Made by a program: the position numbers and the translations under genes
Virus record (IMG/VR): IMGVR_UViG_3300050011_000260
Span: 1 to 49,020 of that record
From: a virus
Length of the DNA stretch: 49,020 nucleotides
Direction: 5' to 3' (one strand)
Shown: positions 3,078 to 48,233 of the stretch, in pieces
Position numbering within the stretch: position 1 is the first letter of the stretch
Layout of the letters: the number at the start of each line of letters is the position of its first letter
The notes under the pieces: model-generated
What the model saw: only the letters and a program-made list of their open reading frames with translations
Told to the model about the DNA's origin: nothing
Databases searched by the model: none

Positions 3078-3088
3078 AAAATCGAAAT

Positions 3089-4508: not shown

Positions 4509-4644
4509 CTTCTTCCTCGCCGCCGCCAGATATCACGCGGCAGTTGTCAGGGCGGCATTCCGTAGCTGCCACGCATTCAGCTTCCAGTTCGCACTCGGCA
4601 TCAACTTCAACCGTACCGCTGTACTCAACCGTGTACTTAGCCAT
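4498..4644 (-). CDS. Small acidic hypothetical protein, 48 aa
   Basis: The preferred start is MAKYTVEYSGTVEV at 4644, just after the stop of the 4637-4900 gene; the longer frame with CRCRWKRTK is unlikely. The protein is strongly acidic with several Cys and a repeated AECE pattern. Function unknown. Confidence 0.6.
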   Translation of the reverse strand: MAKYTVEYSGTVEVDAECELEAECVAATECRPDNCRVISGGGEEEDAS

Positions 4645-4900: not shown

Positions 4901-4914
4901 ACAGATAATACTGA

Positions 4915-5836: not shown

Positions 5837-5843
5837 CGTCGAA

Positions 5844-6080
5844 CTAGGCAACTGGCTCGGCAATGTCGCTCTCCTTGAGAAGCTGGAACGTCATCTGATA
5901 CGGCAGATGGTTCGAGCCCTCGGCGGCTTCAACTACCGCGTTGTAGGTTTCGACCACTTTCAGCAGGGCGGCTTGGGTCGTTGGGGTGACGGTGACGGTG
6001 GGCAATCCCGCTTCGTCAGTTGTGACGTGGATCGTTTGAAAAACCCCCTCGGGGGTCACTGCGAGTCTTGAGAGTTTCAT
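5844..6080 (-). CDS. Hypothetical protein, 78 aa
   Basis: Start at MKLSRLAVTPEG, whose ATG overlaps the preceding stop (TAATG). Thr/Val-rich beta-type N-terminus, helical C-terminus. Function not recognised. Confidence 0.7.
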   Translation of the reverse strand: MKLSRLAVTPEGVFQTIHVTTDEAGLPTVTVTPTTQAALLKVVETYNAVVEAAEGSNHLPYQMTFQLLKESDIAEPVA

Positions 6081-6280
6081 TAGTCTAGCTCCATTTTGTT
6101 CAACCAGATTTTGAAAAGCGTTAACCGGAGAAGCTCCGGGTTGTTGATCGGGTGCCAACCACGAGCCGTGTTGTCAAGGGAGATCAGCCCACGCTCGTCC
6201 CTGATGATGCACAGGTCCACGGAACACCCCTGCGTGGCAGGGATGTTCCAGCAGTATGCATGGTGTGCGGGCGGGTACAT
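6080..6280 (-). CDS. Hypothetical protein, 66 aa, leaderless first gene
   Basis: MYPPAHHAYCWNIPATQGCS... The ATG lies 6 nt after TAGAAT of the promoter at 6287-6318, so translation probably starts at the mRNA 5' end. Two Cys, His-rich N-terminus, aromatic C-terminal helix. First of five coupled genes. Family not recognised. Confidence 0.7.
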   Translation of the reverse strand: MYPPAHHAYCWNIPATQGCSVDLCIIRDERGLISLDNTARGWHPINNPELLRLTLFKIWLNKMELD

Positions 6281-6286
6281 GCGTCT

Positions 6287-6318
6287 ATTCTACCATGCGG
6301 GGGAGGGATTCGGCTAGG
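6287..6318 (-). promoter_or_regulatory. Phage promoter, CCTAGC-N20-TAGAAT
   Basis: TTCCTAGC (core 6313-6318) and GG-TAGAAT (6287-6292) separated by 20 bp on the minus strand, abutting the end of a tRNA cluster and driving the 6280 gene. Confidence 0.7.
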
Positions 6319-6322
6319 AATT

Positions 6323-6399
6323 TGGTGTCGGGAGGGGATTCGAACCCCCGGGGACGGTGATTTTGAGGCACCGATGTCTGCCAGTTGCATCACCCCGAC
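6323..6399 (-). tRNA. tRNA-Leu(CAA)-like, without a long variable arm
   Basis: Acceptor GTCGGGG/TCCCGAC, D region like the neighbouring tRNA-Leu genes (GGCAGACAT), anticodon loop CTCAAAA (CAA), A73 and CCA. Unlike true tRNA-Leu it has only a short variable region, and its T loop is one base short unless a G-T pair opens. It may be a derived or weakened tRNA-Leu. Confidence 0.65.
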
Positions 6400-6405
6400 G
6401 AAATT

Positions 6406-6489
6406 TGGTGTCCGAAGGGGGACTTGAACCCCCACGCCTTGCGGCACATGGTCCTAAGCCATGCGTGGCTGCCATTACACCATTCGGAC
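6406..6489 (-). tRNA. tRNA-Leu(TAG)
   Basis: Acceptor GTCCGAA/TTCGGAC, anticodon loop CTTAGGA (TAG), variable arm hairpin GCC-GCAA-GGC, normal T arm, A73 and CCA. Confidence 0.92.
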
Positions 6490-6503
6490 ATATTTACAAA
6501 TAT

Positions 6504-6576
6504 TGATGGACGCTGCGGGATTCGAACCCACCCGGAATCAGAGTTTCTGACCCGTATCCCATGCCAGAGGACGCCC
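6504..6576 (-). tRNA. Degenerate tRNA-like element
   Basis: Acceptor strands GGGCGTC/AGCGTCC pair with wobble, and the T arm GTGGG-TTCGAAT-CCCGC is good, but the 3' tail is ATCA rather than ACCA. No proper seven-base anticodon loop can be formed (TCAG-AAACT-CTGA). About three bases short. Could be a decayed or edited tRNA; amino acid not assignable. Confidence 0.4.
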
Positions 6577-6581
6577 AAACT

Positions 6582-6667
6582 TGGTGTCGGAAGAGGGACT
6601 TGAACCCTCATGGCTGTTAACCACCAGTTTTTGAGACTGGCGTGTCTGCCGATTCCACCATTCCGAC
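6582..6667 (-). tRNA. tRNA-Leu(CAA)
   Basis: Acceptor GTCGGAA/TTCCGAC, stem CCAGT/ACTGG with loop CTCAAAA (CAA), variable arm TGG...CCA, T loop TTCAAGT, A73 and CCA. Confidence 0.92.
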
Positions 6668-6672
6668 AAATT

Positions 6673-6758
6673 TGGTGTCCGAGAGGGGACTTGAACCCCT
6701 ATGGCTGTTAACCGTCGCGCTCTGAACGCGGTGTGTCTGCCAATTCCACCACTCGGAC
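6673..6758 (-). tRNA. tRNA-Leu(CAG)
   Basis: Acceptor GTCCGAG/CTCGGAC, anticodon loop TTCAGAG (CAG), long variable arm almost identical to the preceding gene, A73 and CCA. Confidence 0.92.
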
Positions 6759-6766
6759 AAATTTAA

Positions 6767-6916
6767 TGAGCACGTGTGTTTCGGCTTTCTGGAGCGGGAG
6801 TCGAACCCGCACCGCCATCGCCACGCCGAACCGCAGCCCCCGTCAATTCGGGGACGTGGGAATCAGGTCTTGCGGCCTGAACCCGCGTCTGCCAATTCCG
6901 CCATCCATCGTGCTCA
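6767..6916 (-). other. Aberrant 150-nt tRNA-Leu-like RNA
   Basis: Closed by an 8-bp terminal stem (TGAGCACG/CGTGCTCA). Inside are a tRNA-Leu-type D arm (GGCGGAATTGGCAGACGC) and a perfect T arm (GCGGG-TTCGACT-CCCGC), but they are separated by about 75 nt holding extra GC-rich hairpins, and about 20 extra nt lie between the T arm and the terminal stem. No encoded CCA. It may be a tRNA with an insertion, a fused remnant or a new small RNA. Confidence 0.5.
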
Positions 6917-6920
6917 AACT

Positions 6921-7008
6921 TGGTGTGCCCGAGAGGAATCGAACCTCCACCCCCGTAATTAGGGACAGCGTTCTCAACGCTGCGCGGCTGCCGTTACGCC
7001 ACGGACAC
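6921..7008 (-). tRNA. tRNA-Leu(GAG)
   Basis: Acceptor GTGTCCG/CGGGCAC, stem GCAGCG/CGCTG with loop TTGAGAA (GAG), long variable arm (CCC-TAATTAC-GGG), A73 and CCA. Confidence 0.92.
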
Positions 7009-7013
7009 AAACT

Positions 7014-7103
7014 TGGTGGGTGAGACAGGATTCGAACCTGTTAGGCCCGCTAGGGGCCGCTGGGTTACAGCCAGCCACGTCTCTCCAACTACGTCGATCA
7101 CCC
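7014..7103 (-). tRNA. tRNA-Tyr(GTA)
   Basis: Acceptor GGGTGAT/CTCACCC, stem GCTGG/CCAGC with loop CTGTAAC (GTA), long variable arm GGCCC-CTAGC-GGGCC, A73 and CCA. Confidence 0.92.
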
Positions 7104-7109
7104 AAAACT

Positions 7110-7198
7110 TGGTGCCGGGAGCAGGATTTGAACCTGCGTACCTCGCTAGGAGGAACGGTTTTACAGACCGTTGGTTTTAGCCGCTCACCCATCCCGAC
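7110..7198 (-). tRNA. tRNA-Tyr(GTA), second copy
   Basis: Acceptor GTCGGGA/TCCCGGC, anticodon loop CTGTAAA (GTA), long variable arm (CCT-CCTAGCG-AGG), T loop TTCAAAT, A73 and CCA. Clearly diverged from the first tRNA-Tyr. Confidence 0.92.
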
Positions 7199-21776: not shown

Positions 21777-23459
21777 TTACTGTTTGCTGTTGGGAGGAGC
21801 CTGTTGTGTTTCCCGTTGAATATTGACCACCACGGGTTTATTGCCCTTCATGTCCATCGACCCACTTTCATCCTTGGACTGGCTGCCGCTCTGGGCCTCT
21901 TCTATTTCGGAATCATCGTACTCGCCCGTGCGTTCTTTGGGCGGGGAAACTTGCTTACGCTTGTCGAATTTGCCCCCGTCCGACGACTGAATCCACCACC
22001 GTTTAGAACCTTCGGTGTAGGAAATAGCGTATGGCTTATCTTCGATGAACTTGTTGGAGCCAGTGCCCACAATGCCGTTGACTTCATCACCGTTCTCGAA
22101 TTCGAACGAAAGTTTCTTGGTGTTATCGTTGTAGAGCACCTTTGCTTCCGTGTTGCCAGCGAAGATGCCCTTGGGACGATAGTATTCAATCACCTGCCCG
22201 GGAGAAGCCTCGTAGCGTTCACCAGCCTTGGTGTATTCCTTGGCGATGTACTCGATCCCCATGAACATGCTGTGAGCATGAGCGGAATCGGGATACCCCG
22301 GATTGTTCGGGTCAATCTTCGGGCGCTTAAACTTGATGCGGACGTTGTAATTGTCACCCACCATGGTCACGTACTTGAAGGGCACGATCCAACCATTCGC
22401 GTCGGGCGATTTCTCCGATTGATCGATGGGCTGATCCACCTTGCTGATCTCGATCTTGAACAAATTGCGAATCGGCAGAACCCGCTTCTCGCTCTTCTTT
22501 TCTTGGAAGAGAGTCGCCAGCAGGGTGCCGTTGTCTATGACATCCTTCACATTCTCTAAGCTTAAGGTGGCTTCAAGGATATCGGGAACGCCGAAACCTG
22601 CTTCGCCTTCGCGATCAGTGTCAATCAAAACGACTGCACCTTCGCCGCCAGGGGGGAAGAAGATTTTCAAGGCAGGCTTGGACTCCTGCTTGCCATCGAT
22701 TACACGGTAGCCCTCGATGTAGTTACCCGTGTTGTCCTGCGGCTTATCCTCAGTGACGATCTTATAGTTCGTCAGGCGAATACTCATCTTCGCTGATTTC
22801 CAGATGAATTCGTTCTCGTCGTCGGGGTGCTTAGGATCGCTCGCCTTGTGATCGTAGGGGGTGGTGTACTGTAATTCCAAGGATTCGATTTCCTTCAAAG
22901 ACCCATCGGTCTTCGCGCCTTCGATCTGACTAGCCTTGAAGGGAAACGCTTCCGATACGTCCTTCACCAAGAAAATCTTACGGATATTGTACCCGCCAGC
23001 CATCTGTGCTTCTGGGCCGTATTCGGGGCGATCACCCATCTTCTGCTCAAATTGGTTCTCCAGATCGGCAGCGTGAACGCGGGCGTACTGCGCCTTGGTG
23101 ATCTGCTCCTCATGCGTCAAGTCCGCACGCAATTTGAATGTATCGAGGTACTGCACCATTTCGGCATTGGTCGGATCGAGAGACTGATCCAAATCCTTCA
23201 AGACAGTCTCAATCTGCGAGGCGACCTTGGCGGTCGGCACCTTGCCATAGACGATGACGTACTGGTTGCTGCCTTCTACCACTTCACGAGCCCACCAGAT
23301 ACGGTCGGCGTAGGCGAACGCGGCGAGGGTCTGCTTCTTCGTCCAGTGCTTTTCTTTTCCAGCGTTGTCGAACTCCGCACGGTATGGCGGTACGCAGCCC
23401 ACCAACAGGAGTACGAACATCAGGGCAACTGCGGCGATTAGAGAACGAAGTGTTTTCAT
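21777..23459 (-). CDS. Lipoprotein, 560 aa, function unknown
   Basis: MKTLRSLIAAVALMFVLLLVGCVPP: signal sequence with lipobox LVGC at residues 19-22, so probably anchored in the host membrane. A large mixed alpha/beta body without recognised motifs; a low-complexity Glu/Ser/Gln tail begins about residue 510. ATGA overlap with the metalloprotease gene upstream, so the two are co-translated. Possibly a superinfection-exclusion or envelope-modifying factor (inference). Confidence 0.75.
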   Translation of the reverse strand: MKTLRSLIAAVALMFVLLLVGCVPPYRAEFDNAGKEKHWTKKQTLAAFAYADRIWWAREVVEGSNQYVIVYGKVPTAKVASQIETVLKDLDQSLDPTNAEMVQYLDTFKLRADLTHEEQITKAQYARVHAADLENQFEQKMGDRPEYGPEAQMAGGYNIRKIFLVKDVSEAFPFKASQIEGAKTDGSLKEIESLELQYTTPYDHKASDPKHPDDENEFIWKSAKMSIRLTNYKIVTEDKPQDNTGNYIEGYRVIDGKQESKPALKIFFPPGGEGAVVLIDTDREGEAGFGVPDILEATLSLENVKDVIDNGTLLATLFQEKKSEKRVLPIRNLFKIEISKVDQPIDQSEKSPDANGWIVPFKYVTMVGDNYNVRIKFKRPKIDPNNPGYPDSAHAHSMFMGIEYIAKEYTKAGERYEASPGQVIEYYRPKGIFAGNTEAKVLYNDNTKKLSFEFENGDEVNGIVGTGSNKFIEDKPYAISYTEGSKRWWIQSSDGGKFDKRKQVSPPKERTGEYDDSEIEEAQSGSQSKDESGSMDMKGNKPVVVNIQRETQQAPPNSKQ

Positions 23460-24925
23460 TGCGTCACCTTCTTGGAAGTCTTGAACGTGCCGAGGAGTTG
23501 AAGTGCTTCTGTTGGAGACATCTTCTGGATTTCAGCCAGCTTCTCGGGATGGTTGGTAAAATACGTCTCGATGTTCTTGCGTTCATCGGTTGTGAATGCA
23601 CGGTTATATTGATCCACGATGTACGGTGGGATACCCATCGCCATGCCGCCCTTGCTGCCCGCCAGACCCTTCTCAAAGGCTCGCTGAGCGATTTCCTTGA
23701 TCTCTTCGCTGTGGGCGGCAAGCCATTCCATCGTTGGCTTTCCACCGCCGAGGAGCGTCGGATTGTAATGTAAGGCGTAAGTCATACGGAAGATCGAGTT
23801 GTCATCACCACGAATGTTGTTCACCGCACCCCACCACATCGGGTCCGAATAGAACTCAGGAATGGTGACGTTCATGAAGAACGTAAGCATATCAGCTTTG
23901 ATCGTCTCGATCTGCTTGTGGTAGTACAGAAAATTCGAATCGTCAAACGACAAGTTTCCCTCGAAGTTAAACTTAACCGTATCCTTCTCGTACTGATCCC
24001 AATCGAATCCGTAGTAGATTTCGGCCAATTCACGGAGGTCCTTAGTGTACCCATGGGACGGCAGGTCGGTCGTGTCTTCGGGAGCCAACACGGACGGCAT
24101 ATCAGCCATCAGTTCCACGTCGAACGCTTCGCTCATGGGGAACTTCTCGAAGTTGATGTTACCGTGCACCATCTCGTGTTGCATGATGTACGGAATGGTG
24201 TGGACGTAATCCGTCATCCAAGCTTCTGGGTTGTAGTAGATGACGCCAGTGTTAAGCCACGTAACGCCGAGAATGCCGCCGAGGGGCGGGTTGTAGCCAA
24301 GGTGTAACTCGCGGGGAATGAAATCGCTAGCCTTGCTAGGCTTCGGCAGGCGGTGCAACTCACGGAATGTAACGCCGTAACCCGGAACCTGTTCATCAAG
24401 TTGAGCAACTAGCTCTTCCTTCTTGATTCCGAGTTTCGTGGCTCGAACCTCGATGGAACGCTCGGCAACCTTCTGGTAAAATGCATTGTCGCGCTCAGCG
24501 GCGATGACGGTAAGCTTCGTAAGGGTACCCACGACTAGCTTCATCTGAGCTTCGGTGACAAAAAATTGGTCGCATAGGGACGTATAACGGTACGTGCCGT
24601 CAGGCTGTTTGTAGGCGTGGTCGATAACGATCTTCAGCTTGGCGGGGTTCTCGGTGACACTGCTCGTGCTCACCACATCCGTCACGACAGAATAGCTGTC
24701 CGAGCCCGGATCGAGAGTCTTCATCTCACTAATGCCTTGATTACAGACCCATGTAGCTTGGAAAAGATGCTCGTATTCCTGATGCTGTTTGATTGGGTCG
24801 GTGGCGTACTGTTGAATGCCCTTCGGGAAGAAGAAAGGCTGTTCGGTCGGTGTGTTTTGGCCGAAGGCGGACACGGACAGAAGGAGAAACGGTACTACAA
24901 GTTGAAGAACTTTGTTAAATTTCAT
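23456..24925 (-). CDS. Secreted HExxH metalloprotease-like protein, 489 aa
   Basis: Start MKFNKVLQLVVPFLLLSVSAFGQN at 24925 (GCGAGGGG RBS); signal peptide cleaved near AFG/Q. IMQHEMVHGN at about residues 250-256 is a zincin HExxH, with candidate third ligand E in FDVELMAD about 17 residues later. Flanking regions are unrelated to families I can name. Expressed from the TTGCAA/TATTGT promoter at 24965 together with the lipoprotein. Could process host envelope proteins; substrate unknown. Confidence 0.72.
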   Translation of the reverse strand: MKFNKVLQLVVPFLLLSVSAFGQNTPTEQPFFFPKGIQQYATDPIKQHQEYEHLFQATWVCNQGISEMKTLDPGSDSYSVVTDVVSTSSVTENPAKLKIVIDHAYKQPDGTYRYTSLCDQFFVTEAQMKLVVGTLTKLTVIAAERDNAFYQKVAERSIEVRATKLGIKKEELVAQLDEQVPGYGVTFRELHRLPKPSKASDFIPRELHLGYNPPLGGILGVTWLNTGVIYYNPEAWMTDYVHTIPYIMQHEMVHGNINFEKFPMSEAFDVELMADMPSVLAPEDTTDLPSHGYTKDLRELAEIYYGFDWDQYEKDTVKFNFEGNLSFDDSNFLYYHKQIETIKADMLTFFMNVTIPEFYSDPMWWGAVNNIRGDDNSIFRMTYALHYNPTLLGGGKPTMEWLAAHSEEIKEIAQRAFEKGLAGSKGGMAMGIPPYIVDQYNRAFTTDERKNIETYFTNHPEKLAEIQKMSPTEALQLLGTFKTSKKVTQ

Positions 24926-24964
24926 TGACCCCTCGCAACCTAATGACATGAGGCACGTATTACT

Positions 24965-24993
24965 ACAATACTGATGTTGGCAGAAGTTTGCAA
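24965..24993 (-). promoter_or_regulatory. Sigma70-like promoter, TTGCAA-N17-TATTGT
   Basis: TTGCAA (24988-24993) and TATTGT (24965-24970), 17-bp spacer, upstream of the metalloprotease-lipoprotein operon. Same hexamers recur at 42463-42491. Confidence 0.7.
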
Positions 24994-25020
24994 CAAAATC
25001 ACTAACTATTTTGCCACTAT

Positions 25021-25746
25021 TCATTTGATTACTTCAATCGAAAAACCAGCAGCCGCGCATTCTTCCCGCTCTTGCTCAACAAAAAGTTCCTTCATTTCCC
25101 TGAACCACATCACGAACTTACCATCTTTGTATTCAGCATGATAGGCACGTTTCTTAGCAAGCTCGTTGTTGTTGAAAGTCACCAATGCCTTCACGATCAC
25201 CATCGGGCTTCGAGCCAGTTCCAGCACCTTATCCAGTGGGTATTGATCGAGGAGCGTCAACATGCTGACTGTATCGAACACCGCTCGATGGGGAAACGGG
25301 TTCGGATAAAGCCTATGATCTACTGGCATGTAAGGCAGCTTCCGAGAAAACCCCTTAGGAAGAGGTAGATCGGTCATCGTGTCAATCCAGAGCTTACTGG
25401 GGTCGGACTCGAAGTTGTAACGTTCGGCCCACGCCTCCTCGAAGCCCTTGTCGAACTTGATGCCGTTATGGGCACAAACGACTTCCGCCGCTTGATACCA
25501 AAGGAAGAACTGCTTAGCACCCTTGAGATCATCCACGCCGTACTTAGCGGATAATTCGAGTGCCTTGGGGAATTTTTCGAGGACTTCGGCTTCCCATATA
25601 GCGGCAAGTCCGGGGTTAACTGGATACCCCATGATCTTTACGGGTTGACGCAAGTCGGTGTCCCACGTCGCCATTCCGACTTCAGTGATGCTGTGGACTT
25701 TGGGGTCCCCGCCTGTGGTTTCAAAATCTAGGCCGAGAATCAACAT
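25021..25746 (-). CDS. DnaQ-like DEDD 3'-5' exonuclease, 241 aa
   Basis: ILGLDFETTGGDP (DxE, residues 7-9), CAHNGIKFDKGF (second D about 99) and HRAVFDTVSML (H-x4-D, about 154-159) give a DEDDh set. No polymerase domain is attached, so it may be a stand-alone proofreading or RNase T-like exonuclease. Start overlaps the MazG-like stop (TGATG). Confidence 0.82.
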   Translation of the reverse strand: MLILGLDFETTGGDPKVHSITEVGMATWDTDLRQPVKIMGYPVNPGLAAIWEAEVLEKFPKALELSAKYGVDDLKGAKQFFLWYQAAEVVCAHNGIKFDKGFEEAWAERYNFESDPSKLWIDTMTDLPLPKGFSRKLPYMPVDHRLYPNPFPHRAVFDTVSMLTLLDQYPLDKVLELARSPMVIVKALVTFNNNELAKKRAYHAEYKDGKFVMWFREMKELFVEQEREECAAAGFSIEVIK

Positions 25747-27647: not shown

Positions 27648-28298
27648 TTAGAACACCAGCTTAAGACCAACGGAACCGTTTCCGCCGCTGATGCGGGCGG
27701 AACCGATGGCTGGTAACGATGCAATGGACGAATTCAACGAAAGCTGTTGAGTCAGACGAAGATGACCCGTCTTTGTCAGGTAGATTTCGTTGTTCAAATC
27801 CACGGTACGCTGGTTGGTTGCCGAGCGGCCCGGAAGTTCGTACAGAGCCGTAATACGGTCGCGACTAAACTGGAAGCCGCCGCCGACGAGAGGAGCAAAC
27901 GTGGTCGTCTGAAGATTCGGAATCAAGCTACGATAGTTGCCGTTAATGACCTGATCCTTGTAGAAAGCACCAGTGCCGACCAACAGCTTACCGAACTTCA
28001 AATAGCCCGTGCCCGTGACTGTTGCGGCGAAGGCGTTTGAATTGACCTTGCCGAAAGCTCGGAAATCTGCGCTCTGGAAGTTTGCATCCAGATTCAGAAG
28101 TAGGTGCTTGGTGCTGGACTCGATACCAGCGCCGACGATGTAGTTGGGGTTGTGAGCGGTGACTGTGCCCGAACCGTTGAAAGTGGACGAGGCACCGATG
28201 CCCGCGTCAACGTAGGGAGCAAACGCTCCGTTTTGAGCAAATGCAGAACTGACCATCAGAGCCAGTGCCGCAAGGACTAATAGGATTGACTTCTTCAT
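27648..28298 (-). CDS. Outer-membrane beta-barrel-like protein, 216 aa
   Basis: Signal peptide MKKSILLVLAALALMVSSAFAQ, then alternating amphipathic strands (YVDAGIGASS, HLLLNLDANF, GYLKFGKLLVG) and a C-terminal Phe in GSVGLKLVF, the usual signature for outer-membrane insertion. Own GAGGAG RBS and terminator, so a single-gene unit. Phage-encoded barrels can block superinfection (lambda Lom-type precedent); that role here is inference. Confidence 0.75.
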   Translation of the reverse strand: MKKSILLVLAALALMVSSAFAQNGAFAPYVDAGIGASSTFNGSGTVTAHNPNYIVGAGIESSTKHLLLNLDANFQSADFRAFGKVNSNAFAATVTGTGYLKFGKLLVGTGAFYKDQVINGNYRSLIPNLQTTTFAPLVGGGFQFSRDRITALYELPGRSATNQRTVDLNNEIYLTKTGHLRLTQQLSLNSSIASLPAIGSARISGGNGSVGLKLVF

Positions 28299-35774: not shown

Positions 35775-37778
35775 TTAGTCGTGGATTGCCGTGACGTTGA
35801 TGGTCACGTTTGTGTGCGGAATAGAATCGTTATTTTCAATCCATACGATCACGCCATTACCCGGTGTCGCCTGATAATTGATGCAGGTGATAAGAAGTGC
35901 TGGTGACGCCGCAATGGTTGGAGTGCCGGGTGCTTCGCCACAAGTCACTGAGCATTGTACTGTGTAATTTCCATCTGCAAACGGTGTTGTGAAGTTGACC
36001 GTCCACGGTCCCGTTACTGGATTTCCTTGATTCACGGTGCCAATGTTCAAACGCACGGTCTGCGAAACAGAAGTGCCGCTGGGTGGTAAGGGAGCAGCCG
36101 AGAACAATCCTGTGCTTGCACTGTAGCCCGTGAGATATTCGAATTCGGGAGGCGACCCCGCTGGTGTTGGGGTGAACGTCTGCGGTAGAACTGGGGTCTG
36201 CCATGCGGGTATGCCGCCGACTACCGTCAACACTTGACCCGTTGTGCCGATTGGCAAACGTAATGGGCCGAGCACTGGAGGGGAACCAACAGTCAGCCCC
36301 TCGTAGATCATGTCCCCATTGGTGGTCATGGGGTTGACGAAGATGCTGCTGAGCACACCCCCCAAAGAAATGCCCGAATCCAGCGTGTTGCCGAACGTGT
36401 CAAAGGTGACGATATCACCAGCAGTGATAGTACCGCCAGCCCCCGCTGGAACTGTGACGGCTGTTGCGGCTGGGATCGAGACTGCCCCATCACCGCCGCC
36501 CACAGCAAGTGCGCGACCCGACAAGATGCCGCCGCCTAACGTAATAGACCCATAAGCAAGGATACTGCCGACCATCGTGCTGGGAGCAACCGATGTGAAA
36601 TCACTGCCGACTACCCAGACCACATTCGCTGCTTGGGCACCATTGACCAAAAGAACATCCGAGCCGCTTTCGAGCGTTACGGTGGAAGCTGCAATAAATA
36701 CAAATACTGCACCCGCATCCCCCTGAGCATCGAGAGTGATGCTCGTCGGGATATCCAAAGCCCCGCCTGAGAATACGCCAGCGTAGTAGACACCCGCTCC
36801 CCCGCCACCGTCGTTGGCGCTGAGGTCTGCGAGACCCGACTGAGTTGGGGTCAAACCACTATAGTAGAGAAATGCGGTCTGACCATCAGTACGTGCTGCT
36901 GGGGCATCCGCATTGTCCACTGTTGCAGTAGGTGGATTAAACCCAGTGATGCTCATGGTCGGGGCTGAACCGATAACACCACCCGCTATTGAGGTTGCTG
37001 GATCGGCGTTTGTGATTCCACTGTACGCCAATAAAGCATAATTAGCTGACGATCCCAATTCCGTAGTGACGGGCGATGGAGGCGATACAACCCCAGTTAA
37101 TTGAACAAAAGCCCCTGTACCCTGAACACTGCACAATTGAGTGGTGGCGAGGCAGCCTGAGATGCGGGAAAAATCGTTAAAGCCTGCAAGAAATATCGCC
37201 GTCACAACATTTGGAGCGGTGAAAGCCACGACGTACCCAACGGTCTGATCGAGACTAGGACTTGATGGTCGAGTGAGAGTGATGCCGCCCGGGGTCACGG
37301 ACGATAAGTAAACTTCCTGACCGACACTGCTGAGAGAAAATTCGCTGTTTGGATCGATGTAGGTAAAAAGTCCACTGAATGCAATAGTACCGGGATGCCC
37401 AGCGTCGATAGGGGATGTTAGGAAACCTTGAGCGGACAAGGATGGGGTCGGCGGTGACCCACCGCCAGCATCGGCATACTCTGCCGTCAGAACACCGCCG
37501 ACACTGTAGAGGTGAACAAGCGGGGCACCTAACTGAAGGTTTACACCAGCAGTAGCGGTTGCACCTGTATTTAGCAACGATGAGTCGATGACGCCGTTCG
37601 GGTTGAGAACTACAGGCACGCCATACGATGCGGCTCCAAGCGAAGGCACGGTCACACCATCACAAGCCGTCACAATGTCAATCAGATTCGATCCCGTCTG
37701 ATTAGGCACGATGGGAGGCGCGGGCTGTTGGTTTGCCTTGACGTTAAAAACGCACACGCGGGTGGGTCCGTTCCCCAT
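35775..37778 (-). CDS. Fibre-like virion protein with DUF3494 ice-binding domain, 667 aa
   Basis: Residues ~240-445 match the DUF3494 (type I ice-binding, beta-solenoid) family: ANYALLAYSGITN, GGVIGSAPTMSITGF, GVFSGGALDIP, SITLDAQGDAGAVFVF, NGAQAANVVWVVGSDFTS and GSILAYGSITL...GRALA in the expected order. No signal peptide. The N-terminal ~235 residues are Gly/Ser/Thr/Pro-rich; residues ~480-530 (NPMTTNGDMIYEG, RLPIGTTGQVLTVVGG) are typical of phage fibre linker repeats. A downstream virion-type gene (38352) and an HNH insertion surround it. Likely binds ice, glycans or a surface. Confidence 0.82.
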   Translation of the reverse strand: MGNGPTRVCVFNVKANQQPAPPIVPNQTGSNLIDIVTACDGVTVPSLGAASYGVPVVLNPNGVIDSSLLNTGATATAGVNLQLGAPLVHLYSVGGVLTAEYADAGGGSPPTPSLSAQGFLTSPIDAGHPGTIAFSGLFTYIDPNSEFSLSSVGQEVYLSSVTPGGITLTRPSSPSLDQTVGYVVAFTAPNVVTAIFLAGFNDFSRISGCLATTQLCSVQGTGAFVQLTGVVSPPSPVTTELGSSANYALLAYSGITNADPATSIAGGVIGSAPTMSITGFNPPTATVDNADAPAARTDGQTAFLYYSGLTPTQSGLADLSANDGGGGAGVYYAGVFSGGALDIPTSITLDAQGDAGAVFVFIAASTVTLESGSDVLLVNGAQAANVVWVVGSDFTSVAPSTMVGSILAYGSITLGGGILSGRALAVGGGDGAVSIPAATAVTVPAGAGGTITAGDIVTFDTFGNTLDSGISLGGVLSSIFVNPMTTNGDMIYEGLTVGSPPVLGPLRLPIGTTGQVLTVVGGIPAWQTPVLPQTFTPTPAGSPPEFEYLTGYSASTGLFSAAPLPPSGTSVSQTVRLNIGTVNQGNPVTGPWTVNFTTPFADGNYTVQCSVTCGEAPGTPTIAASPALLITCINYQATPGNGVIVWIENNDSIPHTNVTINVTAIHD

Positions 37779-38348
37779 TTATCTCGCCTCCGCAAAACTC
37801 AACTTGTTTGCTCTAAACTGCTTCAACGCCGCTGTCATGCAAACCCACTCTTCGTAGGTGTAAATGTCCAATTTGCTGTGATTACAATCCCCGCAACAAA
37901 CGACAAGGTTGCCTTTGGTGTATCCTAGTTTGCTGTCTTTACGGTCGAGATGGTATCTTCCGTAAGTTTGTCTATTGCTGTAAGGAGCCCATGCTATGAA
38001 AGCTCCACAATAATGGCATTCGTCAATTTCCGTAAACCTCAAAAACCCTTCGTATGATAAATCAACGGGTATTTCTCTTTTGCCCGCACGGTAAATGATG
38101 ACATTGTAGATGTGCTCGAACGGACGGAAAGCCCTGCGTTTGGCTTCCGAAGCACGCTCTCGCTGCAAGCACCCACAGCTTTCAGTATTGGGTCGTGTCC
38201 CCTTTCTCCCTAAGTTAGTCCCAAAAACCTCAGTCAGGGTTCCACAAGCACATTCACATGAGTATTTAGCGGGCTCCCACTTACCCGATACCCGAGCAAG
38301 CACTTTCAGCCTGCCGAACGTCTCTCCAATTTTGGTATCTATTTTCAT
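37779..38348 (-). CDS. HNH homing endonuclease, 189 aa
   Basis: N-terminal zinc-type motifs YSCECACGTL and SCGCLQRERASEAKR resemble the DNA-binding module found before phage HNH domains; the HNH core is CHYCGAF...YHLDRKDSKLGYTKGNLVVCCGDCNHSK. Stop and next start nearly overlap (TAAATG), so it is inserted between two co-transcribed genes, splitting them with no loss. Confidence 0.85.
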   Translation of the reverse strand: MKIDTKIGETFGRLKVLARVSGKWEPAKYSCECACGTLTEVFGTNLGRKGTRPNTESCGCLQRERASEAKRRAFRPFEHIYNVIIYRAGKREIPVDLSYEGFLRFTEIDECHYCGAFIAWAPYSNRQTYGRYHLDRKDSKLGYTKGNLVVCCGDCNHSKLDIYTYEEWVCMTAALKQFRANKLSFAEAR

Positions 38349-40689: not shown

Positions 40690-40764
40690 TGGAGCGAGTG
40701 GTGGGATTCGAACCCACGACCTGATGGTTGGGAACCATCCATTCTACCGCTGAACTACACCCGC
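40690..40764 (-). tRNA. tRNA-Gly(CCC)
   Basis: Acceptor GCGGGTG/CACTCGC, stem GATGG/CCATC with loop TTCCCAA (CCC), T73 and encoded CCA. Confidence 0.92.
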
Positions 40765-40819
40765 AAAAATATCGTGTGAGGAAACAGCCCACTGAAACGT
40801 AATACATGTGGAGGACCTC

Positions 40820-40906
40820 ATGTCAGAAACCACATTGCTGCTTCTCATTCTCTTTGCGATCATCGAACTTACGATCAAGCTCTCTCTTCGTGATCGTGAT
40901 CGCTAA
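40820..40906 (+). CDS. Small membrane peptide, 28 aa, plus strand
   Basis: MSETTLLLLILFAIIELTIK followed by a charged tail (LSLRDRDR): a single transmembrane helix. GGAGG lies five bases before the ATG. It sits between two minus-strand tRNA-Gly genes on the opposite strand. Possibly a toxin-like or signalling peptide. Confidence 0.6.
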   Translation: MSETTLLLLILFAIIELTIKLSLRDRDR

Positions 40907-40910
40907 AACT

Positions 40911-40985
40911 TGGAGCGGAATGCGGGGCTCGAACCCGCGACCTCTTCCTTGGCAAGGAAATGTTCTACCACTGAACTAATTCCGC
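40911..40985 (-). tRNA. tRNA-Gly(GCC)
   Basis: Acceptor GCGGAAT/ATTCCGC, loop TTGCCAA (GCC), T arm GCGGG-TTCGAGC-CCCGC, T73 and CCA. Confidence 0.93.
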
Positions 40986-40992
40986 ATTATTT

Positions 40993-41051
40993 GGGGAGGA
41001 TGGGCGTTACTCCAGTTTTGACCTCCGTCCAACAACGAAGCCTCCCCTAAT
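40993..41051 (-). other. Structured spacer RNA between tRNA-Gly genes
   Basis: GGGGAGG and CCTCCCC pair across about 45 nt in the minus-strand transcript. Not a tRNA. Could be a small RNA or a processing structure. Confidence 0.3.
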
Positions 41052-41053
41052 CT

Positions 41054-41128
41054 TGGAGCGAGTGGCAGGAATCGAACCTGTCTCTGTGGCTTGGAGGGCC
41101 ACGGCACCGCCAGTTATACCTCACTCGC
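41054..41128 (-). tRNA. tRNA-Gly(TCC) with atypical anticodon loop
   Basis: Acceptor GCGAGTG/CACTCGC, stem GTGGC/GCCAC, loop CCTCCAA giving TCC but with C at position 33, where U is near-universal. T73 and CCA encoded. Confidence 0.82.
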
Positions 41129-41136
41129 TTGTAAAC

Positions 41137-41529
41137 TTTTGCGTCAGCCCTGTAAGCGGGGTTCTGTGAGCATTGCTGCCCGACGATCATTCCTCTAGGC
41201 GTTGAGTTACCCCAACGCTCAAGCACTCTACCCGCTGATTGATAACGACCCGAACAGAGTCTCTCAGCCTATTTGAGCTTGCACCGCGTAGAGGTTGCCC
41301 GTTTCACCCGAACTAAATCGGTTCGTCACTGTTGCCCTATTCGTCAACCTTCCATCGGGGGACATGGTTGGGCTTTCGCGCTTCCATGCACACCCGGCTA
41401 CCTCGGTTGCTCGGTTTCTCTCCGATACGCTGTTCTATGGTGCCCCGACTTTCCTCCCCTGCTGGCGTCTCTCCCACTTAGAGGCGGGCAACTACCAGTC
41501 AGCGGCAATCGTCTGGCACTGACACAAAA
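41137..41529 (-). ncRNA. rnpB: RNase P RNA, bacterial type
   Basis: About 393 nt. The ends pair as an 11-bp P1 (TTTTGTGTCAG with CTGACGCAAAA). From 5' to 3' the RNA carries GCCAGACGATTGCCGC, GGGGAGGAAAGTC (P4 5' strand), CCATAGAACAG, GGTGCAAGCTCAAATAGG (P10/P11), TTGAGCGTTGGGGTAAC, CTAGAGGAATGATCGTC (J5/15) and ACAGAACCCCGCTTACAG (P4 3' strand), all in the order of bacterial type A RNase P RNA. It processes 5' leaders of pre-tRNAs. It is embedded in the tRNA array between tRNA-Gly and tRNA-Cys. No RNase P protein gene is seen in the window, so it would use the host protein or act alone. Confidence 0.92.
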
Positions 41530-41612
41530 CTTAAATTTTCAAAGAACAACTAATATACGAGGCAAAAGTCTTCTTTCACCCTCGAACACCCAATAGACTA
41601 GGCGTTCAATCT

Positions 41613-41690
41613 TGGAGCACGGGGTGGGAATCGAACCCACTGTCTACGGCTTTGCAGGCCGAGCCTTTCATGCCATTCAGGTTCCCGCGC
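41613..41690 (-). tRNA. tRNA-Cys(GCA)
   Basis: Acceptor GCGCGGG/CCCGTGC, stem TCGGC/GCCG with loop CTGCAAA (GCA), T arm GTGGG-TTCGATT-CCCAC, T73 (a Cys identity base) and CCA. Confidence 0.9.
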
Positions 41691-41695
41691 AATCT

Positions 41696-41770
41696 TGGCG
41701 GTGACGAGGGGAGTTGAACCCCCACCTTTTCCCGTGACAGGGGAATGCTCTGCCATTAAGCTACGTCACC
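41696..41770 (-). tRNA. tRNA-Asp(GTC)
   Basis: Acceptor GGTGACG/CGTCACC, stem TTCCC/GGGAA with loop CTGTCAC (GTC), G73 and CCA, as expected for Asp. Confidence 0.93.
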
Positions 41771-41781
41771 GAACTAAAATT

Positions 41782-41856
41782 TGGAAGCGGCGGCGAGAAT
41801 CGAACTCGCGAATAAAGACTTTGCAGGTCTCGACCTTACCACTTGGCTACACCGCT
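41782..41856 (-). tRNA. tRNA-Cys(GCA), second copy
   Basis: Acceptor AGCGGTG/CGCCGCT, stem AGAC/GTCT with loop CTGCAAA (GCA), T73 and CCA. Diverged from the first copy. Confidence 0.88.
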
Positions 41857-41867
41857 GTACATAAAAT

Positions 41868-41942
41868 TGGTGGACACGGGGAGATTCGAACTCCTTCTTT
41901 CTCATTGCAAGTGAGAGGCATTCCCAGTTATGCTACCGGCCC
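41868..41942 (-). tRNA. tRNA-Ala(TGC)-like with weak acceptor stem
   Basis: Perfect anticodon stem TCTCA/TGAGA with loop CTTGCAA (TGC) and a good T arm, A73 and CCA, but the acceptor strands GGGCCGG/CGTGTCC have two mismatches. The 5' end overlaps the stop region of the 41933 CDS. Confidence 0.65.
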
Positions 41943-42160
41943 ATTTTTGCTGGTTTTGCGACACTCTTCAACGTGCCGTGTACCAGATCAAACTCAAGTT
42001 GCCGAACTACCATCTTGTCCATCTTGAACAAGGCTTCATCCTCGGTGTCGGCGGATGCAACCAAACCCAACGTCGGGTGATTCACCTGATATCCCCAATC
42101 GTGCTTCTCGATCTCCACGGTCGTGACCAGCTTGACGATGCGTTGTCTGTCGCGTTTCAT
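41933..42160 (-). CDS. Hypothetical protein, 75 aa
   Basis: Start MKRDRQRIVKLVTTVEIEKH (42160; GAGAGAG just upstream). A beta-strand/helix layout ending KMDKMVVRQLEFDLVHGT. Lies between tRNA-Val and tRNA-Ala and shares its last ten bases with the tRNA 5' end, so processing would trim the mRNA. Not recognised. Confidence 0.65.
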   Translation of the reverse strand: MKRDRQRIVKLVTTVEIEKHDWGYQVNHPTLGLVASADTEDEALFKMDKMVVRQLEFDLVHGTLKSVAKPAKMGR

Positions 42161-42175
42161 ATTCTCTCTCAATCT

Positions 42176-42251
42176 TGGTGCACCGTGAGGGACTCGAACC
42201 CCCGATAGTCGTCTTGTAAGGGCGATGATTTAGCCGCTAATCTAACAGTGC
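42176..42251 (-). tRNA. tRNA-Val(TAC)
   Basis: Acceptor GCACTGT/ACGGTGC, anticodon loop CTTACAA (TAC), T loop TTCGAGT, A73 and CCA. One mismatch in the anticodon stem. Confidence 0.8.
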
Positions 42252-42257
42252 GCTGTA

Positions 42258-42289
42258 AAAACAAAAAGGACGCCTTTTAAGGGCGTCCT
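42258..42289 (-). terminator. Rho-independent terminator
   Basis: AGGACGCCCTT-AAAAGGCGTCCT followed by TTTTGTTTTT on the minus strand, 25 bp after the 44-aa gene. Confidence 0.85.
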
Positions 42290-42314
42290 CGGAAACTCTT
42301 GATTGGACTAGCTT

Positions 42315-42449
42315 TTAGCCGCCCCAACCCTCCGAGGACACCATATCTCCTACCGCCGCCGCGTCAACGGCGACAGTACCGTGTTCGGCTGCACACACAC
42401 CGACCCTGACGGTCACGACAACACCTACGTTTTGGAGAATGGAGTTCAT
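42315..42449 (-). CDS. Small protein, 44 aa
   Basis: MNSILQNVGVVVTVRVGVCA... Val/Ala/Gly-rich, ending SSEGWGG. Bounded by its own promoter (42463-42491) and terminator (42258), which makes it a dedicated unit. AGAGA precedes the ATG. Possibly a small membrane or beta peptide; family not recognised. Confidence 0.6.
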   Translation of the reverse strand: MNSILQNVGVVVTVRVGVCAAEHGTVAVDAAAVGDMVSSEGWGG

Positions 42450-42462
42450 AGCGTCTCTATTT

Positions 42463-42491
42463 ACAATACTCGGTATTCAGGAAACTTGCAA
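42463..42491 (-). promoter_or_regulatory. Sigma70-like promoter, TTGCAA-N17-TATTGT
   Basis: TTGCAA (42486-42491) and TATTGT (42463-42468) with a 17-bp spacer, upstream of the 44-aa gene. Confidence 0.75.
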
Positions 42492-42850
42492 CAACTATTT
42501 TTGTCGGGAGAGATTCCCGTCGCGTAGACTCTGACAATGGGCTACTGCCCACCAGTGGCGCGGCGTGGACTCCGAAGGTCGCTCAGCCCCTCCCGATCTT
42601 ATGTGCAGTAGGCTCTTCGCCAATAACCGCTATCCGTTCTTCGCCTCAGCTTCACGTCTTACGGCGGTTTACCCTGCACAGCGAAATAAAATCGGCTACA
42701 GTAACCCTGCTACGTTTGCGTACCAGCCAGAGTTTGGGCCGTTGTCACCGTCGCCCCTGTGGGACTTCGGATTATGCGGGTCATGACTCCCGTGACAGTG
42801 GGGTTTAGCCCTAGCCAGCCGTGCACAGTGTGCAGCCGAATCTCTCAAAA
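42492..42850 (-). other. 359-nt region without gene, probably structured RNA
   Basis: No convincing ORF. On the minus strand it offers many local hairpins (TGCACA-C-TGTGCA, GACGGGA...TCCCGAC, GGGCTAAACCCC) and a longer pairing TGTCAC/GTGACA. It follows tRNA-Ala on the transcript from the 43108 promoter. Searched for tmRNA (tRNA-like ends, tag frame) without finding them. Confidence 0.4.
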
Positions 42851-42852
42851 CT

Positions 42853-42927
42853 TGGTGGACCTAGAGGGAATTGAACCCCCGACATCAGCCTTGCAAAGGC
42901 TGCGTTCTCCCGCTGAACTATAGGCCC
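42853..42927 (-). tRNA. tRNA-Ala(TGC)
   Basis: Acceptor GGGCCTA/TAGGTCC, stem CAGCC/GGCTG with loop TTTGCAA (TGC), T arm GGGGG-TTCAATT-CCCTC, A73 and CCA. Confidence 0.92.
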
Positions 42928-43107
42928 GAAACCTTAGTCGCCAAGGGGATCACTTGCATGATCCCCAAGCTAAAAGGTTGTCCCCTCCTGCGATCCTCAG
43001 GCCCGTGACAGGGCGATTGAAGACGGGGGCTGCGATGCATACTCTAGAACTGTCACGTCCTATTGCCTTCACGACAAAGCAGAGGCAGAACGCAGGCTCA
43101 CAGTAGA
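42928..43107 (-). other. Leader between promoter and tRNA-Ala
   Basis: The transcript from the 43108 promoter runs ~170 nt before tRNA-Ala. It contains a perfect hairpin GGGGATCA-TGCAAG-TGATCCCC and a GGAGGGG tract. A 40-aa frame runs into the tRNA and is not believed. Confidence 0.35.
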
Positions 43108-43136
43108 ATAATACCGTAGTCTGAGCATTTTTACAA
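43108..43136 (-). promoter_or_regulatory. Promoter TTGTAA-N17-TATTAT
   Basis: TTGTAA (43131-43136), 17 bp ending CAGACTACGG, then TATTAT (43108-43113). The CAGACTACGG-TATT segment recurs at 43545. Confidence 0.7.
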
Positions 43137-43149
43137 CGACAATCAACCT

Positions 43150-43539
43150 CTACGGAGTGTAAACGTCAGAAGTCCAAGACTCGCTAACACCGAGAACGGC
43201 GCTAACTGCCGTTCCGAATGCCTCAGCGTCGTTGACAGCATTCAAAAAGTCGTTTTGTAGGGCTATGAATCCGTCCCCGCTTGCGATACCGCTCAGACCC
43301 GTGTTTGAAACCCATACACCAGTCGCCAAGTTTAGATCGATAACTACCGTTGGAACCGCAGTGCTGGGTGTAAATGTACCTTGCGGTGGCGAACCGCCAT
43401 TCACACCATTCCCAACTTTGTAGAAAAGCCGAACCGATGTTGGAAAACTGAGTTCAAGATAAAAAAGTGTGGCATGAGCATCGAGTTCGTTAATCGCTCC
43501 GGGTACGAAGAGCGTTGCTGCCGATGTGAGTGTAATCAT
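43150..43539 (-). CDS. Hypothetical protein, possibly virion-associated, 129 aa, leaderless
   Basis: Start MITLTSAATLFVPGAINELD at 43539, 5 nt after TATTGT; the longer frame to 43623 crosses the promoter. Composition is beta-rich with Gly/Thr/Pro and few charged residues (GGSPPQGTFTPSTAVPTVVID), like small phage structural or surface proteins. No domain recognised. Confidence 0.68.
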   Translation of the reverse strand: MITLTSAATLFVPGAINELDAHATLFYLELSFPTSVRLFYKVGNGVNGGSPPQGTFTPSTAVPTVVIDLNLATGVWVSNTGLSGIASGDGFIALQNDFLNAVNDAEAFGTAVSAVLGVSESWTSDVYTP

Positions 43540-43674
43540 ACAATACAATACCGTAGTCTGAAGAAACTTTGGGGCGAAGGGCCGAAGCCCCTCGGCGTGA
43601 GTCCCCCGCCGACCGCGAATCAAACTTTGGGGCAGGCTGTTCCAAACCTGTCACGCATCCCCGCCAAATCGTTT
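43540..43674 (-). other. Promoter and spacer region
   Basis: Holds the TATTGT box (43545-43550) of the gene above with CAGACTACGG upstream. The rest is GC-rich (GGGGCTTCGGCCC hairpin near 43575) with no gene. Confidence 0.4.
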
Positions 43675-43869
43675 TTAGCCCATCCTACCGCCGATTCCAA
43701 TTTCGTAGTTGATGATGGCCTGAGTCATGTCGGTGCGCTTGCGTCCATCTGCCCAATCGGTGGGTCCGCCGTACTCCCGCTTAACCCGCCAAAACAGCTT
43801 GCGGAGTTTGCGGAAGGGCATCTGCATTAGTTCTTCTCGTCGTTGCCCGATGGTCGGATTCGGATTCAT
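43675..43869 (-). CDS. Hypothetical basic protein, 64 aa
   Basis: Start MNPNPTIGQRREELMQMPFR (43869), GGAGA nine bases upstream. Basic helical middle (KLRKLFWRVKREYGG) suggests nucleic-acid binding. Not recognised. Confidence 0.65.
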   Translation of the reverse strand: MNPNPTIGQRREELMQMPFRKLRKLFWRVKREYGGPTDWADGRKRTDMTQAIINYEIGIGGRMG

Positions 43870-43886
43870 AGATCGATCTCCACTAA

Positions 43887-44033
43887 TCAAACTATTTCTA
43901 CCTCAACAATCTCAATCGGCTCTCCCGTAGTCAGCATCTCTTCGGAGATTATTTCCCGCACGTAAGCGGTGGCTTCTTCTACGGTATTGACATCCTCCCT
44001 GTTAAAGGAGAGGGTTACTTGAAACTGCGCCAT
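43887..44033 (-). CDS. Hypothetical acidic protein, 48 aa
   Basis: Start MAQFQVTLSFNREDVNTVEE (44033; AGAGG RBS). Beta-alpha-beta-like and acidic, ending EIVEVEIV. Paired with the basic 64-aa gene downstream. Not recognised. Confidence 0.62.
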   Translation of the reverse strand: MAQFQVTLSFNREDVNTVEEATAYVREIISEEMLTTGEPIEIVEVEIV

Positions 44034-44243
44034 AGGAACCTCTTGGGGAGGGCGGGGCGCATGACCTCTGCGCCCCACGATCTTATGCCCTCATCGAATC
44101 CCGATGCGATGAAAGTCTAGTCCAGACTAACGGATTACTCGTCTGGCTTTCAGGTCCTTGCGTCCCTGAGGGCAAAATTTGCGGGTCGGTTGATTGCCGA
44201 CCAATTAGCGTTGTTTCCGAGGCCGTAGCCTATTGAAGTTAAG
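44034..44243 (-). other. 210-nt leader with hairpins
   Basis: The minus-strand RNA can form GGGGCGCA/TGCGCCCC close to the 48-aa gene's RBS, GGTCGG/CCGACC and CAGAC/GTCTG. No gene seen. May regulate the two small genes or be a small RNA. Confidence 0.35.
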
Positions 44244-44325
44244 TCTCGGGGTGGTCGGGAATCGAACCTAACTTCCTTCCTACGCAACTCTGTAGGTGTG
44301 CTTCCGTTACACCATCACTCCCGAG
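44244..44325 (-). tRNA. Degenerate tRNA-like element
   Basis: Ends pair (CTCGGG/CCCGAG) and a TTCGATT T loop is present, but the T stem is weak, the anticodon loop is 8 nt without U33 (CCTAC-AGAGTTGC-GTAGG) and no CCA follows. First element on the transcript from the 44449 promoter. Confidence 0.4.
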
Positions 44326-46307: not shown

Positions 46308-48233
46308 CTAGTTCATGCTAAGTTCACAGGCCCCTCCTGAGCAGGCGGGTTCGTGTGTGCCCGTAGTCATGTCTTCTACTTCGTAGCTCGGAAGAAGCGC
46401 CCAGTCGAGGACGGGCATTTTCTCCCTATGCGTCTGATACTCAGTTTCGGTGATTTCCGTGTTCGGGGCCTGCTTGTAAATGTGATCGGAATGCGGTAAG
46501 AAGCTCACACCACCCATCACATCAAAATGCTTATAGACCCAAGCGCACACGTCTATCCACTCGTGCTGCCTCACATAAATTGTACATGAGGGGTTATGCT
46601 CTGTCCAGTGCTGTTTGTACGTGAGGTACAGTTCGAGTTGCTGAATTGCATTGAGATCGTTTCGGCATAGAGTTGAAGCCGGGGCTTCCAGCGGAAAGTA
46701 GAAAACGTCCACATCGTTTGGTTTGTCTCTTTCTGGCTCGTTGAAAATTCCCATCGCCTTCAAGAAGGCACCTACGGGATTCTTCCTGTCTTCACGCACG
46801 CCACGCCAAATGTAACGCGAATAACGAGTGTGAATTCCGGGTGAGCAATCAACAAGCTGACTTACTGTGCCACTAGGTTTGACGCACGTGATTGCCGCAG
46901 GCACGGGGATGCCAAGTTTACCCGCCCATTCTGTGGCGACCTCAATGGCGTATAGACGAAGCTCATCGAGCAGTGTTTCCAATGCGGGACCGTTCGTGGA
47001 CATCGTTTTATTGTCCATGATGCCTGTCAAGCTAACGCCAAGGAGCCGCTCTTCTTCAGCGTTCTTCTGCCATTCTTTGCGTAAGTAACGGAATCCAGTC
47101 AGTGTGGACTGGAGGCAGCCAAGAATGACAGCCCTGCGAATCTTTTGCTTGATAGTTGCTCTGGTATCTTCAGGACGAACAACCACCTCGGTCAGATTGC
47201 AGAAGCCTTTGGGGCGCAGGAGAATTTCAGCACAAGGGTTCAATCCGAAATCGTAGTAATTCCCTTTCTCATCTTTGATCGCACGGCGACCATTCTTCGC
47301 CACGTGCTTGCGGGCACCCTCGCGGTTGAACAGACCCCGCTCACCAGACTTCGATTCGACCAAAGTGAGAAATTCCTTCATGAAAACCTCAACATCAGGC
47401 TTTTCCGTGTAGGCAACGGAGTTGTTTGCCAGCCGACGCCATGGGGTTGCGTCGTCGTCGTACCAGCGCCCGTTCTTGGCGTTACGCATACGGTCATCGC
47501 TCAGATTTGAGAGCGAGATCATGGCTGACCGCCTCACACCGCCGCAGACCACCACATCGGCAATCATACACATTAAATCATGACACTCCAACGAGTTAAG
47601 CTTACGCCCAGCAGCGTTCTGAAATAGCTTTACGGTGAATTTGAAGAGTCGGTCGAGGGGCTCTGGGCCGCTTGCTCGCCCACCAAAAGTCTTCAGGACA
47701 CTACCTGCGGGGCGCACGACGGATAGGTCCCATGAGGGAATCAGTCCACCGTACAGCAAACTGATGAGTTGGCGTAGCGATGACGCCCAGCCGATCTTGG
47801 AGTCCTTGACCTTGATGATGGTCTCAGTCGGATAAAACGCCTCGGCAATCTCCGGCATTTTGTTGACATGTTGGCGCTCAACGCTAAAGCCGACGCCAGT
47901 GCCGCACATACTGATGTACATCGCTTCGTCAAAAGCTCTAGGATCATCGACGTTGATATAGGAGCAATTGTAACCAGCACAATTGTCTTTCTCCAGAGCC
48001 TCGCCTGCGGTCATGAGGGCTCGCATGGACGGCATGACTTCCATGCTGAGGATGGCCTGTTCTAGTTCTGCGGCGGTCACTTCCCGATCAGCTTTGGGGA
48101 TGCGAGGTGTGAAGAAGTTGATGTAACGATGGACGGTTTCGTCCCAGTTTTCCCTTCGGTTGAGTTCTGGTATCCAGCGGGCGTAGCGAGACTTATGAAT
48201 ATATTGTTGATACGGGGACATCTTGCGTGTCAT
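46308..48233 (-). CDS. nrdJ: Class II (B12-dependent) ribonucleotide reductase, monomeric type, 641 aa
   Basis: NCSYINVDDP near residue 90 and SMCGTGVGFSVER (about 110) form the substrate and first-cysteine region; LNPCAEILL (about 329-337) is the finger-loop N-x-C-x-E; IMDNKTMSTNG and VKPSGTVSQLVDCSPGIH follow. The end HEPACSGGACELS has the CxxxxC pair that re-reduces the active site in Lactobacillus-type RTPR. No NrdB partner is needed; adenosylcobalamin comes from the host. Reduces ribonucleotides for phage DNA synthesis. ATG overlaps a short upstream frame (TAATG). Confidence 0.92.
   Translation of the reverse strand: MTRKMSPYQQYIHKSRYARWIPELNRRENWDETVHRYINFFTPRIPKADREVTAAELEQAILSMEVMPSMRALMTAGEALEKDNCAGYNCSYINVDDPRAFDEAMYISMCGTGVGFSVERQHVNKMPEIAEAFYPTETIIKVKDSKIGWASSLRQLISLLYGGLIPSWDLSVVRPAGSVLKTFGGRASGPEPLDRLFKFTVKLFQNAAGRKLNSLECHDLMCMIADVVVCGGVRRSAMISLSNLSDDRMRNAKNGRWYDDDATPWRRLANNSVAYTEKPDVEVFMKEFLTLVESKSGERGLFNREGARKHVAKNGRRAIKDEKGNYYDFGLNPCAEILLRPKGFCNLTEVVVRPEDTRATIKQKIRRAVILGCLQSTLTGFRYLRKEWQKNAEEERLLGVSLTGIMDNKTMSTNGPALETLLDELRLYAIEVATEWAGKLGIPVPAAITCVKPSGTVSQLVDCSPGIHTRYSRYIWRGVREDRKNPVGAFLKAMGIFNEPERDKPNDVDVFYFPLEAPASTLCRNDLNAIQQLELYLTYKQHWTEHNPSCTIYVRQHEWIDVCAWVYKHFDVMGGVSFLPHSDHIYKQAPNTEITETEYQTHREKMPVLDWALLPSYEVEDMTTGTHEPACSGGACELSMN

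Follow-up and report, generated by a model that had tools for sequence, protein, structure and literature searches.

A gene on the minus strand of a 49-kb virus record (hereafter the window, meaning the whole 49020-nucleotide stretch of DNA analysed) encodes a 667-aa protein with one domain of the type I ice-binding family, DUF3494/PF11999, and is the only PF11999 gene of that record. Taken as a whole, we think it fairly probable that this is a fibre-like virion protein in which the DUF3494 solenoid acts as an accessory surface-binding module, spread among large tailed phages. The domain itself is very probably a mobile virion-surface binding module, an analogue of the phage Ig-like domains, because it is mobile, optional and, in a relative, inserted in the tail sheath.

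To establish the identity of the domain, the protein was compared with Pfam, with PDB sequences and, as a model, with PDB structures. PF11999 was the sole Pfam family found, matching residues 249-426 with an E-value of 3e-27 and 96.1 bits (cut-off 28.7) and covering model positions 2-197 of 208. A phmmer search of PDB sequences returned 23 chains, the best being the Antarctic ice-binding proteins 6eio (4.9e-15), 7bwx and 5uyt. An AlphaFold2 model of residues 233-450, computed from an input of 23 phage sequences, reached a mean pLDDT of 93.2 and showed a triangular beta-solenoid with a long supporting alpha-helix (domain residues 60-75), the fold spanning residues 233-445 approximately. In Foldseek, 31 of 31 PDB matches with E <= 0.001 were DUF3494 ice-binding proteins or mutants of them, with 7bwx and 6eio as the best (TM about 0.8). 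The earlier note's placing of a type I ice-binding domain at residues 240-445 was thus borne out by both profile search and structure prediction, and a chance match or misannotation was ruled out by the four methods together. The phage domain shares its fold with the cellular proteins AnpIBP (7bwx), EfcIBP (6eio), a Flavobacteriaceae protein (5uyt) and FfIBP (4nu2), and has in common with them the Pfam family, and a Ser/Thr pair and Thr column on the so-called B-face; its sequence identity to the best two is 32-33%. Unlike the cellular proteins, it has no secretion signal, is fused into fibre, sheath and tail proteins and forms a clade of its own. A simple hydropathy test found no signal-peptide-like start on the window protein, as the earlier note had said, so that it lacks the secretion feature of ice-binding proteins; by the same simple test such an N-terminus was present in four of 72 viral carriers compared with 64 of 98 cellular homologues.

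The gene starts with an ATG at position 37778, immediately after the stop of the HNH gene upstream, and is preceded by a Shine-Dalgarno sequence, GGAGG, at 37791-37787. Its layout is summarized in Table 1.

Table 1. Features of the 667-aa protein gene and the adjoining endonuclease gene in the window
Feature	Position	Strand	Basis
667-aa fibre-like protein, one PF11999 (DUF3494) domain	35775..37778	-	ORF call and Pfam match
N-terminal module, residues 1-69	37572..37778	-	conserved in three relatives with differing C-terminal ends
Linker/shaft-like block, residues 70-232	37083..37571	-	relative alignment; low-confidence model
Ice-binding-type beta-solenoid, residues 233-450 (Pfam core 249-426)	36429..37082	-	Pfam, phmmer, model, Foldseek
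Fibre-type linker, residues 476-530 (TTNGDMIYEG...LPIGTTGQVLTV)	36189..36353	-	common to L012/G004 614-aa protein
C-terminal module, residues 565-667	35778..36086	-	homology to G002 479-aa protein
HNH homing-type endonuclease, directly upstream of 667-aa gene	37779..38348	-	PHROG HNH/endonuclease VII, E about 1e-12

The N-terminal module was 83, 82 and 58% identical in aligned blocks to three relatives (L001, L002 and L044 respectively). A constant N-terminus with differing C-terminal ends is, at the level of sequence, what is seen in fibres whose attachment end stays constant, and residues 1-69 are likely to be that end. Most of the following block (residues 70-190 or so) is absent from a 1066-aa homologue in the related record G002. 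Behind the solenoid, the linker (about residues 470-535) recurs in a 614-aa protein of record G004 whose N-terminus matches PHROG tail fibres, and the C-terminal module, a probable fibre tip, is 45% identical to the C-terminus of a 479-aa G002 protein that matches four PHROG tail-fibre families. PHROG profiles gave no match to the window protein as a whole, hence no direct tail-fibre hit, and the full-length model had a mean pLDDT of 48.7, with flanks that fold with low confidence as a monomer. For these two reasons we infer its location from the shared modules, by which it is likely to sit on the virion. The fibre-type character that the earlier note gave to the flanks therefore stands indirectly, through the linker and the C-terminal module, which recur in tail-fibre-matching proteins, and lacks a PHROG match of the protein itself. 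The gene is flanked directly by helicase and HNH nuclease genes and not by structural ones. Searching with the flanks of the protein gave marginal matches at most, of which the best was to a Sinorhizobium jumbo phage (E 0.01).

The window has 35 ORFs with homologues in G002, an IMG/VR record of 223.5 kb, and most of these are collinear with G002 19-69 kb at roughly 80-90% identity. The G002 gene set includes PHROG portal, DNA polymerase, tail sheath, baseplate wedge and lysin, and the collinearity with a record carrying genes for portal, sheath and baseplate places the window in a large myophage lineage. Bacterial contamination of the contig was ruled out by this collinearity and by a main domain clade that is viral only. 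Three tblastn queries of 50697 phage records gave no isolated-phage relative; domains closely related to this one were found in about 50 IMG/VR contigs, known from environmental DNA alone. Several other features of the window were observed. The gene at the position of the G002 ribonucleotide reductase (46308-48233) is 31% identical to its G002 counterpart amid neighbours of about 70-81%, suggesting a replaced reductase gene. ARAGORN predicted 23 tRNA genes in the 49 kb, in two clusters (224-7198 and 40690-44321) with runs of Pro, Leu, Gly and Cys/Ala types. Signal-peptide-like starts, an unusual cargo for a phage, were seen on three genes (21777-23459, 23456-25024 and 27648-28298), whose products are respectively a lipoprotein-like protein of 560 aa, a 522-aa protein with an HExxH motif (QHEMVHGN) and a protein with a weak outer-membrane beta-barrel match; the first two have close homologues in G002.

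The strongest link between the domain and the virion came from record G007, which encodes a tail sheath of 1421 aa (L011; PHROG tail sheath at residues 1086-1417, E 7.7e-24) with PF11999 at residues 269-459 (E 3.1e-28). Residues 1-248 are 67-69% identical to the sheaths of G002 and G004, residues 478-1421 (944 residues) are 88 and 86% identical to them respectively, and the 229 residues between (249-477) are absent from both. Consistent with this, the sheath open frames measure 1220-1225 aa in four related records versus 1447 in G007. Judged by these alignments, this is a clean domain insertion into a protein that must be present in many copies in the virion. The domain is thus found in a proven virion protein class, through a relative's tail sheath and not through the window gene. 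A second clean case, on the head side, is locus L168, where the gene of a 120-aa protein lies two genes downstream of that for the major head protein; the 335-aa neighbour is 54% identical to this paralogue over the aligned stretch, and its domain starts where the homology stops. With L193 and L205, a domain-bearing gene follows the major head protein gene at three loci. At L193:2085-4719 and L205:3018-4964 an endonuclease-like ORF appears to interrupt or follow the gene for the major head protein, as would be seen with an intron or a split gene.

The carriers as a whole differed widely. When the domain was masked, 72 distinct viral carrier proteins fell into at least 11 unrelated groups (15 with stricter settings). 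G002 has six PF11999 copies, G004 (186 kb) five and the other records one to three; all 47 viral records checked exceeded the Pfam cut-off, as expected from their selection for PF11999. A 2070-aa G002 protein (L003:5418-11630), whose gene lies in the tail region close to those for lysin and baseplate wedge, combines seven He_PIG Ig-like domains with one ice-binding-type domain in a single chain. Elsewhere the domain is joined to fn3 and a weak PKD match (L019), to a weak pectate-lyase-like, tailspike-like match (L054) or to a tail-fibre-type N-terminus (L012). The domain therefore occurs in several unrelated structural carriers and is optional between close relatives. In sum, the phage surface module proposed in the earlier note is backed by the sheath insertion, the Ig-like, fn3 and tailspike-type fusions and the at least 11 carriers, and the ice or host-glycan ligand proposed with it stays putative.

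In a tree of the domain, 54 of the 59 distinct viral domains formed one clade (SH-aLRT 99) that contained none of the 58 cellular representatives, a set biased towards close relatives by the phage-derived patterns used to retrieve it; the remaining five viral domains fell among the cellular ones. Within the main clade the domains of the G007 sheath, a G003 fibre-like protein and a G004 824-aa protein were sisters despite their unrelated carriers, and 22 changes among 14 carrier states were counted on the tree. A homing-type endonuclease gene adjoins 18 of 66 domain genes compared with 9.1 expected from the local density, the cases being non-independent, which is suggestive of a role for these endonucleases in helping the modules to move. 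Such genes lie directly beside domain genes at 37779-38348 of the window, L005:8843-9607, L193:5129-5728 and L205:5048-5686.

We then considered what the module may bind. AnpIBP binds ice through its B-face, and the substitutions S153Y and T156Y reduced its activity to 17% (PMC7277481). In a pairwise alignment these residues correspond to Ser392 and Thr395 of the window protein, two positions that hardly vary among the phage domains. With the B-face assigned via alignment and secondary structure rather than coordinates, its outward columns 1, 2 and 4 consisted in the 59 viral domains of 42% Thr and 29% Ser, and 96% T/S/A/G/V in all, with 0.3% aromatic and 0.3% charged residues. The median entropy of the face in these domains was 0.72 bits versus 1.54 elsewhere (p 0.003) and lay below the prediction from cellular homologues (p 0.002), both p-values being descriptive, and inflated by the close relationship of the viral rows. 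An aromatic or charged residue anywhere on the face was seen in six of 54 phage-clade domains versus 44 of 83 cellular ones. The window domain has the small, Thr and Ser columns and the equivalents of AnpIBP S153 and T156, with the caveat that it is one of those six, carrying Asp393 where its relatives have Ser. Part of the Thr conservation may be structural. A conserved, Thr/Ser-rich and charge-free face favours an ice-type or other flat, unvarying ligand over a diversified host-receptor site, and its preservation suggests that the phage domain has kept the ligand of its relatives. The likeliest ligand would thus be ice or some other flat ordered surface; that ice is the physiological one is a tentative assignment, with the balance slightly against it.

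The main rival to ice binding is that the same virion module was re-used in a lectin-like manner, to bind host or environmental glycans (capsule, LPS, cellulose or chitin), with ice irrelevant. We regard this as unlikely, with real points in its favour: the domain is found in the same proteins as Ig-like, fn3/PKD and tailspike-like modules, and a crystalline polysaccharide such as cellulose would suit a flat face. Domains added to sheaths are usually Ig-like, and weak binding to cell-surface carbohydrates has been proposed for them (PMC9230969); DUF3494 proteins, which are also found in habitats free of ice and as binders of substrates, have been termed substrate-binding and surface-adhesion domains besides ice binders (PMC12337378). 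However, the aromatic and charged residues usual for glycan sites are nearly absent from the B-face (0.3% each), and the face is more conserved than the rest of the domain, whereas host-range determinants normally diversify. The same conservation, exceeding that in the cellular homologues, is unexpected for a rigid, protease-resistant spacer or stabilizer spread by recombination with no specific ligand; we consider such a filler improbable, even though many carriers are tolerated, carriers changed repeatedly (22 changes among the 14 states) and added sheath domains have been suggested to stabilize tails (PMC9230969).

Least probable by far, in our judgement, is an auxiliary product that guards the infected host cell against freezing and is no part of the virion. 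PF11999 in Arctic viral contigs was read in this way (PMC11515562), and the window gene lies near DNA-metabolism genes. Against it, the window protein has no signal peptide, signal-peptide-like starts are rare in viral carriers relative to cellular homologues (4/72 versus 64/98), and the domain sits in a tail sheath and is fused to fibre modules.

For the surface-binding module, we propose that a phage lineage acquired the domain from a cellular ice-binding protein, and that it then spread within large tailed phages as a mobile decoration in the manner of Ig-like domains, reaching the tail sheath as an insert, a small protein beside the capsid gene as an appendage, and fibres, spikes and tail-region proteins. 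The signal peptide would have been dispensed with because the virion displays the domain. The B-face would work as in ice-binding proteins, giving multivalent docking to ice, the ice-water interface or another flat ordered surface. Such docking would retain particles in frost-affected soil water or in ice veins where cells concentrate; alternatively, the benefit may be protection of the particle during freeze-thaw. In its fullest form, in which a large soil-phage lineage coats its sheath, fibres and probable capsid-side proteins with active ice-binding domains, so that the particles are held at many points on ice or at its interface with water and thereby persist through or exploit freeze-thaw, the proposal is somewhat less likely than not.

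The standard example of a mobile and optional phage decoration is the Ig-like domain. Like the DUF3494 domain, Ig-like domains are optional, mobile and multi-copy in sheath, Hoc and fibres, and occur in unrelated structural proteins including sheath insertions (PMC9230969). Their fold is unrelated to that of phage DUF3494, a triangular beta-solenoid with a conserved flat Thr/Ser face. One report lists PF11999 as a possible host cryoprotection gene in three Arctic surface-microlayer viral contigs; these are probably phage contigs, as here, and virion context, module swapping and sheath insertion are not described in the available text (PMC11515562). Among viral entries of the structure libraries, only DUF3494 proteins of Hyperionvirus (BFVD) matched with E <= 0.001. 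Hyperionvirus, a soil giant virus of eukaryotes, likewise encodes the DUF3494 fold but is not a phage. Our literature search found no earlier report of DUF3494 as a phage particle module; as far as could be searched, a known domain family and a known type of role had not previously been joined.

The module would be a second phage decoration domain, structurally unrelated to the Ig-like one, and the solved structures and mutants of its relatives give strong prior grounds for naming a ligand. Should virions bind ice, this would provide a concrete mechanism of retention and survival for phages of frozen soils, snow and permafrost, with ice as a physical rather than biological adhesion target. It would also shift the reading of PF11999 in viral contigs from a host-helping gene to a component of the particle.
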